64,000 nt of DNA from Verrucomicrobiales bacterium. Its GTDB lineage: Bacteria; Verrucomicrobiota; Verrucomicrobiia; Limisphaerales; UBA11358. The translations under genes and the position numbers were made by a program. Positions 2,663 to 43,288 of this stretch are shown piece after piece. Every line of letters starts with the position of its first letter. Position 1 is the first letter of the stretch. The notes beneath the pieces are model-generated. The model was not told where the DNA came from and searched no databases. It worked only from the letters and a program-made list of their open reading frames with translations. Location of the stretch: the NCBI GenBank assembly GCA_028712475.1, contig JAQTQB010000001.1, forward strand, positions 372,001-436,000, written 5' to 3'.

Positions 2663-3313
2663 AAGCTGCCCCGGTTCTTTCAGCTTCAACGGCGCAAAAC
2701 TTTTGCGGTGGATCGGGCACGCGCCAAATTCTTCAATTGCCGCCAGATGCTTTACAGTGCCGTAGCCTTTGTGTTCCGCAAAACCATATTCTGGAAACTG
2801 CGCGTGATATTCCAGCATCAGCCGGTCGCGCGTGACCTTGGCCAGCACGCTCGCGGCGGCGATGGAATAGCTGCGCGCATCGCCCTTCACGATGGCCGTC
2901 TGCGGCACGCGCATCGTCCTGACCGGGCGGCCGTCCACGAGCGCGTGCTGCGGCTGCGGATTTAATTTTGCCAGCGCGTCATTCATCGCGCGGTGCGTCG
3001 CCTGCAGGATGTTGATCTCATCAATCACTCCCGCGTCCACGGCGGCGATGGCGGATTCGATTTCCGCGCAGGCGGTGAGAAATTCAAAATACTTTTCGCG
3101 CTGCGCTTTGGTGAGCTGCTTGGAATCGTTCAAGCCAACGAGTTCGGCGGGCAAACCCGCTTCCGCCCAGCGCGACGGCAGAATGGCGGCGGCGGCGACG
3201 ACCGGCCCGGCGAGCGGCCCGCGCCCGGCCTCATCCACGCCCGCGACGCGCGCGAGATTTTGCTGCCACAGCACGCGCTCGAACTCGAAACGGTCAATGA
3301 ATTTTGCTCCCAT
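2660..3313 (-). CDS. rnhB: Ribonuclease HII
   Basis: 217 residues, the normal length. RNase HII cuts the RNA strand of RNA-DNA hybrids and excises single ribonucleotides from DNA. The signature VDEAGRGPLAGPVVAAAAIL (Asp26-Glu27) and the downstream LVDG and YSIAAASVLAKVTRDR blocks supply the metal-binding acids and substrate-binding residues. The ATG at 3313 begins MGAKFIDRF. It is the upstream member of an rnhB-yraN unit on the minus strand. Confidence 0.95.
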   Translation of the reverse strand: MGAKFIDRFEFERVLWQQNLARVAGVDEAGRGPLAGPVVAAAAILPSRWAEAGLPAELVGLNDSKQLTKAQREKYFEFLTACAEIESAIAAVDAGVIDEINILQATHRAMNDALAKLNPQPQHALVDGRPVRTMRVPQTAIVKGDARSYSIAAASVLAKVTRDRLMLEYHAQFPEYGFAEHKGYGTVKHLAAIEEFGACPIHRKSFAPLKLKEPGQL

Positions 3314-3433
3314 TCAAATTTGATTCACGATGACGTGGTGCGCGAAGTCAGGCAATGAAAAATCCGCTACATTCGCGTCCTTCCTGCCATCGCCGCTTGC
3401 TTCGGCGTGGCAAGCCGTGGTTAAATTTTGCCT

Positions 3434-3964
3434 ATGAAAATTGATTCCCTACACATCGGCATGAGCGTCCGGCATCCGCAATACGGCCTGGGCACGGTCA
3501 AGACGATCTCCGAAATCACGGCGGATATTTTATTCAGCGAAGGCAAGCGCACCATTGAACCTGATGCCGCCGGCCTCGAACCCGCCGAACCGCAGGCGGC
3601 GGTGAGCGGCTTGAGCGTGCCGCTGAAACAATTTGTCGAGCAGACGCTGGCGGCGGCGGTCGCGAAGCTCGGTCTGGAAAAGCCGGATTCGGTCGTGGAA
3701 CAACTCGGCCTGCGCTGGCACGGCGGCAAACTGGTCATGCATCCGGCGGACGTCACGTTGCAGACCAAGGAAGTGCCGTTGGAAGTTTTTTTTCACAAAA
3801 TCGTGATGGTCAGAAATAATCTCCGAGTGCTGGAACAAAAGATCAACGCGCACGAAAAACTTTCCGACGGCGAGAAGGTGGAGATGCAGCAATACATCAC
3901 CAGGAGCTACGGTTCGTTGACGACGTTCAATGTGTTGTTCAAGGAAAAGGAGGATCAGTTTTGA
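3434..3964 (+). CDS. Hypothetical protein with N-terminal Tudor-like strand block
   Basis: 176 residues from the ATG at 3434 ([18 protein letters not shown]); a TTG two codons upstream is less likely. The first ~35 residues ([17 protein letters not shown]) look like the small beta-barrel seen in CarD-like and UvrD C-terminal Tudor domains, which bind RNA polymerase or nucleic acid. The remainder is helical and charged, with a middle segment [14 protein letters not shown] and a C-terminal coiled-coil-like stretch ([20 protein letters not shown]). I do not recognise the full-length family. It ends five bases before the tRNA-Val gene on the other strand. Confidence 0.6.
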
Positions 3965-3968
3965 AGAA

Positions 3969-4043
3969 TGGTGCGCGGTGCAGGGTTTGAACCTGCGACC
4001 CCTTGCGTGTGAAGCAAATGCTCTACCACTGAGCTAACCGCGC
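3969..4043 (-). tRNA. tRNA-Val (anticodon CAC), CCA encoded
   Basis: Read on the minus strand, the gene folds into a full cloverleaf. The acceptor stem is GCGCGGT/ACCGCGC and the D arm is GCTC-AGTGGTA-GAGC. The anticodon stem TTTGC/GCAAG closes the loop TTCACAC, so the anticodon is CAC. The T arm is GCAGG-TTCAAAC-CCTGC. The discriminator is A at 3972 and the 3' CCA is genomically encoded at 3971-3969. It decodes GUG. Confidence 0.95.
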
Positions 4044-4234
4044 GTCGCCATTTAAGGCTAACCAGCGGCAGAATTTTCGCAAGCCAAATGCCCTGCCCGC
4101 ATCAGTTTTAACTGCCCCGCCGCCAAGCCGCGTTGTCCGCAAATCGTCCGCTGCAAGGGGTTGCAGCTTGTTTTTGGGACACCCGGCTAAAACAGGCTTA
4201 AGATGAAATGCGCGATTTCATTGATGATTATCGG

Positions 4235-4251
4235 TTGGCACACGCATTGCT
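4235..4251 (+). promoter_or_regulatory. Candidate sigma-54 (RpoN) promoter
   Basis: TTGGCACACGCATTGCT matches the -24/-12 consensus TGGCAC-N5-TTGCT with exact spacing. The predicted start of transcription would be near 4262, directly at the GTG of the small secreted protein. The message would then be leaderless, or translation would begin at the TTG at 4290. Confidence 0.55.
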
Positions 4252-4262
4252 AAATTCAGCGC

Positions 4263-4757
4263 GTGCAGAAAACCGAACACGTCGCCCGGTTGCTTCACCT
4301 GTCCACGACGGGGAAGTCCTTCTGCATCATCACCGCGCTTCTGATTTCCGCCGCCGTTTCCGTGTGCGCTGGAGAACCCGTCATGACGCTGGCGCTGGCG
4401 GATCAGCATCAATCGCCGGTGGAATCAAACGCGCCGGAGCCAACGGACTTGCTGTCCGGCGTGGACAGTTCGCTTTTTGATTTGAAAAGCAGTCCGCCCG
4501 CAGCGTCTCGCCCTGGAAAAGAAATGCCGGTGGAATTTTCAACGGGGACATTGCTCGAAGAACAGGCCAGATTCAGCCATGGCGATTCACTCCAGCTCGT
4601 CCGCGAAAATCGAACCTCCGCCAGCCGGTCGAATGTGACATTCAGCGTCCAGGCCGGTTACGGGCGGATTTGGGACGAAAAATCCATGCTCCAAAAAATT
4701 TCTGACGGCCATCAGGAATCCGGCTGCGCCTATGTCAGCGCGAACTTCAGTTTTTAA
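4263..4757 (+). CDS. Small secreted protein of unknown function, sigma-54-type promoter
   Basis: 164 residues from the GTG at 4263. A hydrophobic segment [19 protein letters not shown] (about residues 19-37) is a signal peptide with a likely cleavage after Ala-Gly. The mature protein is Ser/Pro-rich and then ends in strand-like sequence with a terminal Phe (YVSANFSF), hinting at a membrane-associated or barrel-like end. I know no family for it. Because the -12 element sits only 12 bases upstream, the true start could be the TTG at 4290, which still keeps the signal peptide. Its 3' end overlaps convergent nadB by 11 bases. Confidence 0.55.
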
Positions 4758-6351
4758 GTTTCCGCAGCACCGAGTCGCGCTGCGCCCAGGCGGGATTTGC
4801 GTCGGGAAAATCCAGGTTATAATTCAGCCCGCGACTTTCTTGTCGTTGCAACGCGCAATTCACAATCAGTTCCGCCACCGTCGCGATGTTGCGTAACTCC
4901 AGCAAATCGCCCGTCACGATAAAATTCCAATAATAGTCCCGGATTTCCTCCTGCAGATTCGCGATACGTTTCTGCGCGCGCTGCAATCGTTTGTTCGTCC
5001 GCACGATGCCGACGTAATCCCACATCAGCCGCCGGATCTCGTCCCAGTTGTGCGCGACAACGACGAGTTCGTCGGCATTCGTCGCGTTTCCGGACTGCCA
5101 CGCGGGAATTTTCAGATCCGAGCGCGGCTGCGGATGGGAAATAATTTTCACCGCCGCCCGATGCGCGCAGACCAGCGCCTCCAATAGTGAATTGCTCGCC
5201 AGCCGGTTAGCGCCGTGCAAACCAGTGCAGGCGACTTCGCCCACCGCAAAAAGTCCCGCGATGTCCGTCTCGCCGTCCACGTTTGTCACCACGCCGCCGC
5301 ATTGATAATGCGCCGCCGGCACGACGGGAATCGGCTCCTTCGTGATGTCAATGCCGTAGCTAAGGCAGGTTTGGTAAATGTTCGGAAACCGCTCGATGAT
5401 GAATTTTGCCGGCTTGTGCGTGATGTCCAGCAGCACATTGTCCGCGCCGCTTTTTTTCATCTCGCTGTCAATCGCCCGCGCCACGATGTCGCGCGGAGCG
5501 AGTGATTTCATTGCGTGCGCGCCGTCCATGAACTCCCGCCCGTCGAGCGATTTCAAAACGCCGCCTTCGCCGCGCACGGCTTCGCTGATGAGGAATGATT
5601 TTGCCTTCGGATGATACAGGCACGTCGGGTGGAACTGGACGAACTCCATGTTCGCGATGCTAGCGCCTGCGCGATACGCCATCGCCACACCGTCGCCCGT
5701 CGCGATGTCGGGATTCGTCGTGTAGAGATAAACCTTGCCGCAGCCGCCCGTCGCGAGAATTGTGACTGGCGCGGAAAAAGTCACGACACGATTGGAATTT
5801 TTGTCGAAAACGTAAGCGCCGAGGCAGCGATTCTCACCAACGTAACCAAGCTTCTCGCTCGTGATCAGATCAATCGCGATATGATTCTCAAAAATCTCGA
5901 TGTTCGGCTGCGCCGCCACCGCCGCCAGCAGCGCGCGCTCGATCTCCCGTCCCGTCACATCCTTCGCGTGCAGGATGCGGCGTTCGGAATGGCCGCCCTC
6001 ACGTCCGAGGTCAAGCTGTCTGCCGCCATCCTCGCCCGGCGCGTCGCTCTCGGAAAATTTCATGCCGAGTTCGATCAATTCCTGAATCCGCGCCGGGCCT
6101 TCCTCCACAATTGTGCGGACGACGCTTTCCTTGCACAAACCCGCGCCTGCCGTGAGCGTATCTTGAACGTGCGACTCGAAGGAATCCGTCTTGCTCGTCA
6201 CCGCCGCGATGCCGCCCTGCGCGTAATTCGTGTTCGACTCCGCGCGATCTTTCTTCGTGACGATGGCCACGCGCCCGCGCGGCGCGACCTTCAGCGCGAA
6301 CGTCAGCCCAGCGATGCCGCTGCCGAGGACGAGATAGTCGAATTGCTTCAT
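4747..6351 (-). CDS. nadB: L-aspartate oxidase
   Basis: 534 residues, the usual length. NadB oxidises L-aspartate to iminoaspartate, the first step of de novo NAD synthesis, and normally hands its product to NadA, which is not in this window. The FAD-binding Rossmann motif is at the N terminus ([16 protein letters not shown]). Downstream lie the [10 protein letters not shown] loop, the catalytic/substrate region HPTCLYHP and the C-terminal FAD block [18 protein letters not shown]. The C-terminal helical domain is complete. Succinate dehydrogenase/fumarate reductase flavoproteins are related, but the YAQGGIAA motif and length favour NadB. Confidence 0.95.
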
Positions 6352-21853: not shown

Positions 21854-21924
21854 ACGCAGCGTCGCGGAAGAATTGTTCAATTTTACCTTCTCGACAAATC
21901 GAAACGTGGAAATAGCATTTCAAT

Positions 21925-22794
21925 ATGCCGCGCGTGGCAATTTTTTTATGCAATAACCGAACTATGGCTGGATGTTTTGAACATCAGCTATTCGGAACTG
22001 GAGACGGCTATGGGCTTCAAGTGAGGCAAGGGGATTTCTGTTTGCTTTATAACTTTGAACAAAATCAAGTTTTTGGTGTTTGGCGAGCCACTTCTGATGG
22101 CGGCAATTACGAGCCACACGCATGGCATGGTCAATTTCCAAATCAAGTCCGCATCGAGGAGGCTGGTGAGATTAAACAAGCAACTCGAAATCAAATTCAG
22201 GCACTTGTTGGTTCTCAAATTATTGGAAAAATTTATGTTGGCGAACTAGCTGAGAGTTTACTTCAGCATTTCCAGCCAGAAGTGAGAGGACAAACAGCGC
22301 GAACAGGGCAAACTGCGACGGCTTCAAGACCAACTGAAAGTCGCGCACCACGGCAGACGACACCGGATTATTTATTGCTTCCGCCCAAATTCTTTTGCGA
22401 AGACACACACCGCGTGCGTTCACAGGGTGAAAAAATTATTGATGATTGTCTTTTCCGACTTGGAGTGCGACATGACTACGAACCGCAAATCACAATCCAA
22501 GGCGGGCAGATGATTCCCGACTTTGTTGTATACGCAAGAGATGGCAAGCCAGTTTATATTGAATATTGGGGCAAGCTTAACGAACGAGATTACGATGCTC
22601 GTCGCATAGAAAAAACTTTACTCTATCGGAGCAATAATTTGCCGCTCATTCAAATAATCCCCGACGACCTTCAGAAGATTAAGTTTGTTCTTGAGAAAGA
22701 ATTAGAAAATTGGGACGTGCCTTTTAAGGACAGTTTTTTCAGCTTGCTCGGTTATTTTTTCAAGCGGCTTTTCAATATGCTCCGTTCACGTTGA
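21925..22794 (+). CDS. DCD-like domain fused to PD-(D/E)XK nuclease
   Basis: 289 residues, AT-rich compared with its neighbours. The N-terminal ~115 residues (IFLCNNRTMAGCFEHQLFG, FCLLYNFEQNQVFGVWRATS, then FPNQVRI) closely resemble the DCD domain, known mainly from plant development and cell-death proteins. A linker rich in Thr, Arg and Ala follows. The C-terminal half has a restriction-like fold: EKIIDDCLFRLGVRHDYEP, then MIPDFVVYARDGKPVYIEYW with the Asp and the Glu expected of PD-(D/E)XK sites (the last position is Tyr-Trp-Gly-Lys). It may recognise modified nucleic acid and cut it, i.e. a defence or repair nuclease. That role is inference. Confidence 0.65.
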   Translation: MPRVAIFLCNNRTMAGCFEHQLFGTGDGYGLQVRQGDFCLLYNFEQNQVFGVWRATSDGGNYEPHAWHGQFPNQVRIEEAGEIKQATRNQIQALVGSQIIGKIYVGELAESLLQHFQPEVRGQTARTGQTATASRPTESRAPRQTTPDYLLLPPKFFCEDTHRVRSQGEKIIDDCLFRLGVRHDYEPQITIQGGQMIPDFVVYARDGKPVYIEYWGKLNERDYDARRIEKTLLYRSNNLPLIQIIPDDLQKIKFVLEKELENWDVPFKDSFFSLLGYFFKRLFNMLRSR

Positions 22795-22843
22795 AATGCC
22801 AGCGATTGCCCGCCGCAGGGTTTTCAGTTAGCTTCGAGGGCGT

Positions 22844-24975: not shown

Positions 24976-25431
24976 ATGCCACAATCCCTGTCCGCCGTTT
25001 ACATTCATCTGGTTTTCTCCGCCAAAGACCGACGGCCATTGCTGCGCGACAAACCCACGCGCGACGCGCTTCACGCATATCTCGGTGGCATTTCCAAACA
25101 ATTGGATTGCGCGCCGATCCAGATCGGCGGCGTGGAGGATCATGTTCATGTGCTGGCGCGGTTCGATCGCACCATCTCGCAGGCCGAATGGGTGAAGGAA
25201 TTGAAACGCGTCTCGAACCTCTGGCTGAAAGCGCGCGGTCGCGATTACGCCGACTTCGAGTGGCAAGGCGGTTACGCGGATTTCTCCGTGAGCCAATCGA
25301 ACCTCGAACAGGTGAAGCAATACATCGCCGGACAGGAGGAGCATCATCGTAAAATTGGATTTCAGGATGAGTTGCGGGCGTTGTTGAAACGACACGAAAT
25401 CGAATGGGATGAGAAATACGTTTGGGAATGA
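24976..25431 (+). CDS. REP-associated tyrosine transposase (RAYT, IS200/Y1 family)
   Basis: 151 residues. Y1-type single-strand transposase features: the N-terminal strand VYIHLVFSAKDRRPLL, the HUH motif in GGVEDHVHVLARF (His-Val-His) and the probable nucleophile Tyr in LEQVKQYIAGQEEHH. RAYTs move or propagate REP palindromes rather than themselves. Here the gene is flanked by three copies of a matching REP (24714-24827, 24848-24950 and 25452-25552). The same REP core occurs at both ends of the helicase gene 14 kb away. All catalytic residues appear intact. Confidence 0.93.
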   Translation: MPQSLSAVYIHLVFSAKDRRPLLRDKPTRDALHAYLGGISKQLDCAPIQIGGVEDHVHVLARFDRTISQAEWVKELKRVSNLWLKARGRDYADFEWQGGYADFSVSQSNLEQVKQYIAGQEEHHRKIGFQDELRALLKRHEIEWDEKYVWE

Positions 25432-39911: not shown

Positions 39912-39941
39912 TTGCTGAAACTCACAGTTTCTTGTTATCGT
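39912..39941 (+). promoter_or_regulatory. Candidate promoter of the helicase gene
   Basis: TTGCTG, 18 bases, TATCGT, followed by CACC and the ATG nine bases on. It has the same form as the promoters before the aminotransferase and prfC. Confidence 0.4.
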
Positions 39942-39949
39942 CACCGCCG

Positions 39950-42900
39950 ATGGCTCTGGAAGATGACATTCTCGCAGCACTCACGCGTGAACCGGGTTTG
40001 AAAGGCCGGGAAATCGCGAGCCGTCTTGGTTTGGACAAGAGCTTTGTCAATTCGACGCTCTACAAACTCCGGCTGCGGAAACTCGCATGGCAAGACAGCG
40101 GCTATCGCTGGTTTCTCAAGTCTGCCAGTCGTGAGTCTGGCCAGACCGCCCAGCCCCAACTTGACACGCCGTTGACGAAGTTGAGCCGTTATTATCTTCA
40201 CTGCCTCAGTCTGGATGACGAGAGTGGGGTCAGTTTGTTCGCTCAGTCTCGGTTTTCGCCGGAATACATCGAACTGCCAGTTCTCCCCGAGTTCGATCCT
40301 GAAGAACGCAGCCTCGCGAGCTTCACCGGAGTTTCGGAGTTATTTCAACGGTTGCGAACTTCTGCGAGTCGTCAAGTGCCTTATCTCGGTTATCCAGTCC
40401 GGTTAAGAGCGCACCGGTCAGAAAAGGGTTGGGAAGGATTTTTTGTCGAGCCGGTGTTTCTTTTTGATTTCACAGATGACGCGCTCCAGAGAGGCGCAGA
40501 CCCTGCGCTTACTGGCGAATTGCCAACCTTCAATTTTCGCGTTCTGAAATCCCTCGCAATGGGCGACGACTCGCAAATCATGGACGAAGCCGCGCGGCTT
40601 GCAGAGGAGCTTGGATTTTCTGAAGCCGAGCCACCGGAACTGGATGAGTTCATAGCGCGGCTGGTTCAAATTCGAGAGGATTGGGATTGGAAAGAGGAAA
40701 TGAATCCCGCGAGCCTTTCATCGGGAACACCTCTTAGCCAAATCAGTGACGGCGGAATTTACAACCGGGCTATTGTGTTCGGCTGCGAGCGCTCGCCATT
40801 CACAAAAGGGCTCGAACAAGAACTGGCAGAGCTGCAAAAGAAAACTGAAGAAGCATATCGTCCCACTGCGCTCGGAGCTTGGTTGCGCCGTGATTTCACG
40901 TCGTTTCGAGCGCCCGCCGCTCAAGAATCGGAGTTGCTTGAACCGCTTCCACTCAATTCAGAACAACGTGAAGCCATTGAAAAGGGGCTTTCACTTCCGC
41001 TGACCGTTATCACTGGCCCGCCGGGAACAGGAAAATCGCAAGTTGTTTCGACGCTGCTGGTCAATGCTGCAAAGCGAGGACTGCGAGTTCTGTTTGCCAG
41101 CAAAAACAATAAGGCGGTGGATGTAGTTGAGACACGCGTGAATGCTTTGGGGTCGCGCCCAATCTTGTTGCGTCTTGGGCGCGGAGAATATCAGGCCAAT
41201 CTTTCGCAATACCTCACAACCTTGCTCGCCAGTCGCGCGACGCCGGAAGATGAAGAGAATTTCCGTGAGGCACAAAGTGAATACGCCGCCTTGACCGTGA
41301 AGATTCGGGCGTTGCAGGACAGAGCGCAGGAGATTGTCGAGTTACGGAATACTGTGGATGCCGCAGAAAGGAAGGCCGAAACCGTCCGCAGCGAACTTGG
41401 CGAAGAACGGTTCAATCAATTCTGCTCGTTTGACGCGAACGGCCTTCAGCAGCAAGCAGAACGTCTTCTGGCGGTAGCAGAACATGCCTGCCGTGAGAGA
41501 CAACCAATCTTCACACGGTTGTTCTGGTTTGCTTTTCGGAACGCCCGCATAGCCGCACTCTGTCGAGTCACGGAAGATGTTCGGAAGTCGCTTGAGTCCG
41601 TCGGAATCTCAGTTCCAACAAATCCAACTGCGGACACCCATGTGGCAGCTTGGATTGAAACTTCAGGTGAACTTCGCCGCCGGTCTGAACAGGTTCGCTT
41701 GACTTCGGCTTACTCGAAGCAACTGAATCTGCTGTCAGCGGGCGAGCGATTGGAAGACCTGACAAGCAAGTTGGTCGGCCTTAAGAACGATTGTGCTTCC
41801 AAGTCCATGCGAGTGTGGGAGGCGTGGCTGTGTCTCGCACCTGCCCGACTCAACCAATCTGACAGGAAGAATCTAGGTGACTTCAACGCCGTGCTCAGGC
41901 TCTTGGTTCAAAGCGATGGGCAAGGGCAACGCGCTGGCCGCGATGTGTTCGCACGCTATTATCGTCTGTTTCCACATCTTGTAAGCCAGTTGCCTTGCTG
42001 GGCTGTGACTTCGTTATCGGCACGCGGTCGAATCCCGCTTGAAGCAGGATTCTTTGATCTTCTTGTTGTTGATGAGGCAAGTCAGTGCGACATCGCATCG
42101 TTGCTGCCGTTACTCTTCAGGGCGAAAGCGGCGGTAATCATCGGTGACCCGATGCAGCTCCGCCATATCAGCGCAATTTCCCCGCGACGCGACCGCGATC
42201 TTTTGCAGCAACATGGCTTGGCAGAAACACACATCAACTGGGCTTTCTCGGAGAATTCAGTTTTCGATCTGGCAAGCCCGCTTGCATCGGCTGACGACAT
42301 TATCATGCTGCGGGATCACCACCGGTCACACGCCGACATCATTGGCTTCTCCAACGATCATTTCTACGGAGGCCGATTGCGCGTTGCGACAAACTATGAT
42401 CGCCTGCGACGGCCCGCGCTTGATACACCGACAGTCCGATGGGTTCAGGTCGAAGGAACGGTCACGAAGCCCGGTTCAGGTGCGTTGAATGAAGCCGAGG
42501 CTAAAGCTGTCGTCTTGGAACTTGAACGCATGTTGGTGCGGCAGGGATACCGAGGCAGTGTCGGCGTTGTGACTCCGTTTCGCGCGCAGGCAAACAAAAT
42601 CCGTGACTTGCTGCACGCGCATCCGCAAGCCAACCTGATGCTCAGAAATGGAGAGTTGCTTGTGGACACTGTTCACCGTTTTCAAGGCGACGAGCGAGAC
42701 GTGATGATTTTCTCGCCCGTCGTGTCGCGAGCAATGCCGCAAGGCGCTTCAATCTTTTTGAGAAAGACCGGCAACCTGTTCAATGTGGCAATCACCAGAG
42801 CGCGAGCTACGCTGGTAGTCGTTGGAGATTTTGGCGCAGCCAAGAACTCCGACATCAAACACCTTTCCGCTTTTGCGAACTATGTCGAGGGCGTGAACAC

Positions 42901-43288
42901 AAACACACGTCATGCCGGGATGCGGGGACAAGAAAACTATGACGGCGGTCCGAACTTTCCAGCGGTCGCTCGTCCCGAATTGGTTTCGGATTGGGAACGG
43001 GTGCTTTATACCAAACTTTACCAAGCTGGCCTCAGACCAATTCCGCAGTATGACGTGGAGAAATTCATTCTCGACTTCGCGTTAATTGCTGGCAATCGCC
43101 GGCTCGACATCGAGGTTGATGGCGAGCGATACCATAGGGACTGGACGGGTGAATTGTTGCGTCGCGATCAACTTCGGAATATGCGACTCATCGAGCTTGG
43201 GTGGGACGTGATGCGCTTTTGGGTTTACGAACTCCGTGACAACATGCCGCAGTGCATTGAGCGCGTGAAGCGCTGGACGCGCGGATAG
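39950..43288 (+). CDS. wHTH / SF1 helicase / Vsr-like nuclease fusion
   Basis: 1112 residues from the ATG at 39950. Residues 1-60 form a winged helix (GLKGREIASRLGLDKSFVNS). An SF1 (UPF1/DNA2-like) helicase follows: Walker A VITGPPGTGKSQVVSTLL, Walker B LLVVDEASQCDIA, GDPMQLRHIS, HHRSHADIIGFSN, VGVVTPFRAQANKI, VDTVHRFQGDERDVMIFS and NVAITRARATLVVVGD. The last ~100 residues (DIEVDGERYHRDWTGELLRR) are a Vsr/DUF559-like PD-(D/E)XK nuclease. Such single-gene helicase-nucleases are frequent in defence islands. The gene is AT-rich and lies alone between 118-129 base inverted repeats, which suggests it moved in as a unit. Confidence 0.88.
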   Translation: MALEDDILAALTREPGLKGREIASRLGLDKSFVNSTLYKLRLRKLAWQDSGYRWFLKSASRESGQTAQPQLDTPLTKLSRYYLHCLSLDDESGVSLFAQSRFSPEYIELPVLPEFDPEERSLASFTGVSELFQRLRTSASRQVPYLGYPVRLRAHRSEKGWEGFFVEPVFLFDFTDDALQRGADPALTGELPTFNFRVLKSLAMGDDSQIMDEAARLAEELGFSEAEPPELDEFIARLVQIREDWDWKEEMNPASLSSGTPLSQISDGGIYNRAIVFGCERSPFTKGLEQELAELQKKTEEAYRPTALGAWLRRDFTSFRAPAAQESELLEPLPLNSEQREAIEKGLSLPLTVITGPPGTGKSQVVSTLLVNAAKRGLRVLFASKNNKAVDVVETRVNALGSRPILLRLGRGEYQANLSQYLTTLLASRATPEDEENFREAQSEYAALTVKIRALQDRAQEIVELRNTVDAAERKAETVRSELGEERFNQFCSFDANGLQQQAERLLAVAEHACRERQPIFTRLFWFAFRNARIAALCRVTEDVRKSLESVGISVPTNPTADTHVAAWIETSGELRRRSEQVRLTSAYSKQLNLLSAGERLEDLTSKLVGLKNDCASKSMRVWEAWLCLAPARLNQSDRKNLGDFNAVLRLLVQSDGQGQRAGRDVFARYYRLFPHLVSQLPCWAVTSLSARGRIPLEAGFFDLLVVDEASQCDIASLLPLLFRAKAAVIIGDPMQLRHISAISPRRDRDLLQQHGLAETHINWAFSENSVFDLASPLASADDIIMLRDHHRSHADIIGFSNDHFYGGRLRVATNYDRLRRPALDTPTVRWVQVEGTVTKPGSGALNEAEAKAVVLELERMLVRQGYRGSVGVVTPFRAQANKIRDLLHAHPQANLMLRNGELLVDTVHRFQGDERDVMIFSPVVSRAMPQGASIFLRKTGNLFNVAITRARATLVVVGDFGAAKNSDIKHLSAFANYVEGVNTNTRHAGMRGQENYDGGPNFPAVARPELVSDWERVLYTKLYQAGLRPIPQYDVEKFILDFALIAGNRRLDIEVDGERYHRDWTGELLRRDQLRNMRLIELGWDVMRFWVYELRDNMPQCIERVKRWTRG

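Follow-up and report, generated by a model that had tools for sequence, protein, structure and literature searches.

The window, a 64,000-nucleotide stretch of the genome of a bacterium from the phylum Verrucomicrobiota, contains a gene for a protein that is probably a stand-alone, ATP-independent, modification-dependent (type IV) restriction endonuclease. A feature of type IV enzymes, the union of a modified-base reader and a nuclease in one protein, is present according to profile matches and a structure model. Computation reveals two domains with recognizable folds and conserved residues, an isolated insertion of the gene, and the same combination of reader and nuclease in a phage-like contig. 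We infer a DNA rather than an RNA target, base flipping, cleavage, and a role in defence. The N-terminal DCD domain would scan duplex DNA and take up a flipped-out modified base in an aromatic pocket. Joined to it by a flexible linker, the C-terminal Vsr-type PD-(D/E)XK domain would then cleave the DNA close by, with the help of metal bound to D199 and E213 and of E169 and K230. Unmodified host DNA would be spared, so that no partner methyltransferase would be needed. The gene would thus form a single-gene module, gained horizontally, that acts against phages (or plasmids) whose DNA is modified.

Domain organization and predicted structure

Features of the locus, by window position:
21854-22843, no strand: interval between the FlK-like thioesterase gene and ubiD that holds the extra gene, 990 bp in the window
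21925-22794, + strand: DCD-nuclease gene, an open reading frame with an ATG start encoding 289 residues, with Pfam and PADLOC matches and an AlphaFold2 model of mean pLDDT 78
21925-22275, + strand: DCD / PUA-like reader domain, residues 1-117, with predicted EVE/YTH-like fold; PF10539 match at 21937-22206
22123-22125, + strand: W67, which may line the base pocket and is the same in all nine sequences of the DCD alignment A5
22273-22386, + strand: flexible inter-domain linker, residues 117-154, pLDDT below 50
22387-22719, + strand: Vsr-type / PD-(D/E)XK nuclease domain, residues 155-265, from the PDC-S69/S68 profiles and the predicted fold
22429-22431, + strand: E169, putative catalytic Glu in the first helix, kept in 11 of 11 sequences
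22519-22521, + strand: D199 (PDF motif), putative metal ligand, kept in 11 of 11
22561-22563, + strand: E213 (IEYWG), putative metal ligand, kept in 10 of 11 sequences and replaced by Q in the remaining one, Vibrio L055
22612-22614, + strand: K230, putative catalytic Lys moved from E-x-K into the following helix, kept in 10 of 11 sequences, the exception being Vibrio L055
22732-22785, + strand: C-terminal amphipathic helix, residues 270-287, helical in the model, with the highest hydrophobic moment of the protein (0.59)

Residues 5-94 match the Pfam family Dev_Cell_Death (PF10539) with an E-value of 2.9e-15 and a score of 56.6 bits, twice the curated cut-off of 27.8; this profile check, together with the predicted EVE/YTH-like fold, bears out the DCD domain that the first-pass annotation had recognized in the N-terminal half. 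The nuclease that it had placed in the C-terminal half is upheld by PADLOC profiles (PDC-S69, 3.7e-19; PDC-S68, 7e-15; HEAT_CxxC_PDDEXK, 6e-10) and by a Vsr-like model fold, and the nuclease residues are conserved among homologues. No Pfam family exceeds the threshold in this half; DUF790/Bax1 reaches only an E-value of 0.0014. The PDC-S69 match of the window protein covers only profile positions 177-286 of 289 and leaves the winged-helix N-terminal part unmatched; by contrast, P0001 spans positions 1-289. Profiles built without the window sequence recover the window protein with E-values of 2e-24 for the DCD part and 2e-21 for the nuclease part; 2000 shuffled versions of the protein gave no hit with either profile. 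Therefore, the pattern of DCD plus nuclease is not a product of chance.

The structure was predicted with AlphaFold2 from 12 sequences comprising the window protein, phage relatives, and eight other prokaryotic DCD domains; the nuclease half of this input consists of three sequences only. The DCD core and the nuclease blocks mostly have pLDDT values of 80-95, and residues 117-154 are disordered. A model computed from the single sequence was discarded because of its pLDDT of 38.6. In the retained model, residues 1-117 resemble the EVE proteins PH1033 (1wmm; Z 10.9, rmsd 2.9, 114 residues aligned) and MJECL36 (2p5d; Z 10.6), the latter being also the top Foldseek match (E 8e-5), as well as the YTH m6A readers Mmi1 and YTHDC1 (Z about 10). 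The DCD half is predicted to have the fold of EVE/YTH modified-base readers. Modelled residues 155-265 resemble the catalytic domain of I-Bth0305I (Z 11.1, rmsd 2.7, 93 residues aligned); further neighbours in the PDB are Vsr (Z 9.5), NGO0050 (Z 9.4), and Bax1 (Z 9.4). The weak DUF790 match of the nuclease half agrees with the likeness to Bax1, because DUF790 is presumably the Bax1 family. Sequence searches of the PDB gave MJECL36 as the sole match of the DCD profile (E 0.016) and I-Bth0305I as a match of the nuclease profile (E 0.32), both of which are weak alone and consistent with the fold assignments. Profile comparison with hhalign relates the DCD alignment to the EVE-type domain of an archaeal protein that matches the Pfam EVE family and, more weakly, DCD.

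In the hhalign comparison, W67 is aligned with a Trp of the EVE domain; the second DCD of the phage-borne relative L057 has F at this position. It has been shown that the base flipped by the EVE-HNH enzyme VcaM4I is stacked on W82 and Y130 (PMC7897488), and by analogy W67 may have a base-stacking role.

The nuclease residues were compared in an alignment of 11 sequences from Verrucomicrobiota, Methylotuvimicrobium, Nostoc, Vibrio, and two viral contigs. The canonical (D/E)-x-K spacing is absent: the sequence reads E213-Y-W215, and the conserved lysine, K230, follows 17 residues after E213. Migrated lysines occur in the PD-(D/E)XK superfamily. Therefore, the displacement of K230 weakens the description of the site as canonical, but not its assignment to PD-(D/E)XK nucleases. 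The C-terminal amphipathic helix is not present in the phage relatives L057 and L089.

Acquisition and surroundings of the gene

In two congeners with the gene order mdh-thioesterase-ubiD, the gap that corresponds to the 990-bp interval measures 51 bp (L065) and 105 bp (L062). The GC content of the DCD-nuclease gene is 44.1% (GC3 0.38), compared with 61.7% (GC3 0.83) for mdh, 59.3% (GC3 0.79) for ubiD, and 59-62% (GC3 0.75-0.83) for the neighbouring genes overall, which agrees with the AT-richness noted on first reading. Because of the tiny gaps in the congeners and the low GC content, the gene looks acquired, and a horizontal transfer of this single gene is probable. No clear target-site duplication or terminal repeat is present at the insert. 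A 14-bp imperfect direct repeat (21915/22767) was judged to be due to chance; its second copy lies within the coding end.

The nearest genes examined with Pfam are mdh, the FlK-like thioesterase gene, ubiD, an unassigned ORF, a Y1 transposase gene, and a MarR-like gene. These nearest flanks, the part of the window covered by this search, contain no methyltransferase; the locus revealed no partner gene and is not surrounded by a defence island. The transposase gene is IS200-like (24976-25428, + strand; Y1_Tnp, 1.5e-21), lies 0.6 kb beyond ubiD, and is possibly REP-associated. Elsewhere in the window, positions 39932-43285 (+ strand) encode an 1118-residue SF1 helicase with a C-terminal REase_MTES_1575/DUF559 (Vsr-like) domain. 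It matches the PADLOC profiles MkoC (5e-67), MkoA (2e-50), PDC-S37 (2e-48), and Hhe (3e-24) and is a candidate for a second defence nuclease in the window.

Relatives of the reader and of the nuclease

An order-wide search of 320 genomes with a profile of the window protein and L057 found the nuclease, or part of it, in 14 other genomes, and the fusion of DCD to the nuclease in none besides that of the window. In these relatives, the partners of the nuclease are a winged-helix/KilAC pair (PDC-S69), HEAT-CxxC repeats, a Top1 zinc ribbon, and SF1 helicases. The variety of N-terminal partners indicates that this nuclease has been shuffled among proteins as an effector module.

The 438-residue protein L057, from an IMG/VR contig, has two DCD domains (Pfam, 7e-30) followed by a nuclease of the window type and is 27% identical to the window protein over 266 residues (E 6e-21). 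Its gene is located between terminase (gpA) and portal-like genes, beside a gene for a DpnII/MboI-type restriction endonuclease. L057 was found by scanning viral contigs with the nuclease alignment and is the sole viral fusion found. Two further nuclease scans of viral contigs returned the L057 contig again or nothing, four DCD-directed or full-length scans, some with queries that included partly invented consensus rows, returned no relative, and a final pattern search returned the nuclease-only phage protein L089. The partly invented rows served as search bait for genome contigs only, and every sequence in the subsequent analyses comes from a real locus. DCD is absent from the plasmid and phage record collections searched with tblastn. 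At 3023-4339 and 4700-5992 of the phage-like contig L088, a tandem-DCD nuclease gene and a DpnII/MboI-type restriction endonuclease gene lie on opposite strands, both of them between terminase and portal-like genes; the latter of the two matches the PADLOC profile Aga_Helical-REase (8e-24).

Among 388 genomes of the phylum, one has DCD, and among 384 of the class, two do; the genome of the window is included in both counts. With a nine-sequence prokaryotic profile, which also picks up weaker, partly EVE-like matches, the counts for the phyla of four other genomes are 18 of 300 (Bathyarchaeota), 7 of 198 (Thermodesulfovibrio), 4 of 35 (Omnitrophota), and 2 of 247 (Thermokryptus). Two DCD fusions, L024 from Bathyarchaeota (182-1018, - strand), with a weakly Hjc-like nuclease that has PD-(D/E)XK residues, and L050 (1492-2424, + strand), with a NucS_C nuclease, use nucleases other than that of the window protein. 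Therefore, the fusion of DCD to a nuclease arose more than once.

DCD is also joined to N4/N6 methyltransferases, followed in L008 by a BsaWI-type restriction endonuclease, occurs within type I restriction-modification operons (L010 and L013, in the latter as a DCD-AAA form), and stands alone adjoining HsdS and restriction endonuclease genes (L007/L010). The survey of neighbourhoods for defence islands that the first-pass annotation had proposed is thereby positive for type I operons and restriction enzymes next to other DCD genes, and negative for the window gene. In L013 (4246-12301, an Omnitrophota metagenome-assembled genome), and also in L014, L015, L051, and L052, DCD is combined with a classical AAA ATPase (PF00004 and AAA_lid_3) that matches the PADLOC profile IetA (6e-34). 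The L013 gene, as read by eye, is positioned between HsdM, nucleotidyltransferase/HEPN-like, and HsdS genes and an HsdR-like gene. This form is IetA-like; McrB-like fusions are mentioned by Bell et al. (2020, PMC7641849). The archaeal loci L030-L040 (phylum of G688) encode stand-alone DCD proteins of about 110-210 residues without a nuclease, some of which (L030-L032) share a C-terminal extension.

Restriction of modified DNA and its alternatives

Bell, Wolf & Koonin (2020, PMC7641849) described DCD as EVE-like, rare in prokaryotes, and associated with type I restriction. They reported its fusions to PD(D/E)XK, McrB-like, and methyltransferase domains; prokaryotic DCD, in their prediction, reads modified bases for restriction. 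DCD-PD(D/E)XK fusions are therefore a known kind, and the window protein shares their reader-plus-nuclease architecture and their rarity. The fusions reported there come mostly from archaea and hyperthermophilic bacteria, whereas the window gene belongs to Verrucomicrobiota; the nuclease of the window protein is Vsr-type and PDC-S69/S68-like, a comparison made with the text description of the earlier fusions only. New here are the Verrucomicrobiota member, the identification of its nuclease as the Vsr-like PDC-S69/S68 module, the reader and nuclease folds supported by AlphaFold2, the phage-borne tandem-DCD relative, the evidence for insertion, and an added pairing of reader and nuclease. The literature found contains no biochemical test of a prokaryotic DCD protein.

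Flipping of 5mC/5hmC and restriction of phage T4gt have been demonstrated for VcaM4I (PMC7897488). Like this enzyme, the window protein has an N-terminal reader of the PUA superfamily, a linker, and a C-terminal nuclease in one chain, with no methyltransferase; however, it pairs DCD with a Vsr/PD-(D/E)XK domain instead of EVE with HNH, and its linker is predicted to be disordered, whereas EVE-HNH enzymes have an auto-inhibitory helix (PMC7897488). A YTH/EVE-like reader also serves DNA restriction in YTH-McrB of Thermococcus gammatolerans, as cited in PMC7641849 and PMC7897488; there it works with a GTP-dependent McrB translocase and a separate McrC nuclease, whereas the window protein has no NTPase. 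The PADLOC candidates PDC-S69, PDC-S68, and HEAT_CxxC_PDDEXK share the nuclease module with its conserved S-x-x-E, D-F, E-[YF]-W-G, and K-x(2,3)-Y motifs, but have winged-helix pairs, an SF1 helicase, or HEAT repeats in their N-terminal parts, and none has DCD.

The protein could instead act in abortive infection, with DCD sensing a phage-induced signal and freeing a non-specific nuclease so that the cell dies. The first-pass annotation took this step from a death-associated domain, a description that derives from the name of the plant family, the sole support for this reading; however, the predicted fold is not that of a signalling domain but that of a reader of modified nucleic-acid bases, the two domains are joined by a short, disordered linker, and the locus revealed no partner gene, all of which makes abortive infection very unlikely. 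A YTH-like reader that binds modified RNA, with a C-terminal domain that cuts it, would suit RNA-targeting defence or tRNA/mRNA processing: Mmi1 and YTHDC1 are among the top Foldseek neighbours, and a Vsr-like domain is also found in the RNA-handling protein FASTKD4 (PMC11879112). By contrast, the nuclease of the relatives is joined to DNA helicases and DNA-binding domains, and elsewhere in prokaryotes DCD accompanies DNA methyltransferases and DNA restriction systems, so that an RNA substrate is quite improbable. Since both Vsr and Bax1 are repair nucleases, the reader might find a damaged or endogenously modified base, alongside which the Vsr-like domain would nick. The sporadic occurrence of a single gene that has no other copy in the 320 genomes of the order, the low GC content, and the relative on a phage contig point to a role in conflict rather than in housekeeping repair, and leave repair or mismatch-type nicking only a slim chance.

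Type IV restriction is favoured by the position of the nuclease module behind DNA-binding and helicase parts, by the restriction-modification settings of DCD, by L057, and, as an experimentally tested analogue, by VcaM4I. The points against it are the lack of a defence island, the E-x-W motif with its displaced lysine, and the three-sequence nuclease input of the structure prediction; RNA binding by YTH and some EVE domains counts against an assured DNA target, and the C-terminal amphipathic helix is not accounted for. The restriction of modified DNA that the first-pass annotation had suggested as its other reading is supported by the reader fold, the restriction-type nuclease, and the earlier DCD proposal in PMC7641849. 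A compact, soluble, single-gene DCD nuclease would permit a direct assay of which modified base is cut, and such an assay could reveal the ligands of DCD domains generally, including those of plant stress and cell-death proteins.

It is a long shot that DCD-nucleases constitute a distinct restriction class that reads a modification beyond those of EVE, SRA, and YTH domains, that phages carry them as weapons against rival modified phages, as the tandem-DCD L057 might be, and that the C-terminal helix of the window protein sets the nuclease at the membrane, where it would meet incoming DNA. The helix is a candidate for a membrane or dimer role.
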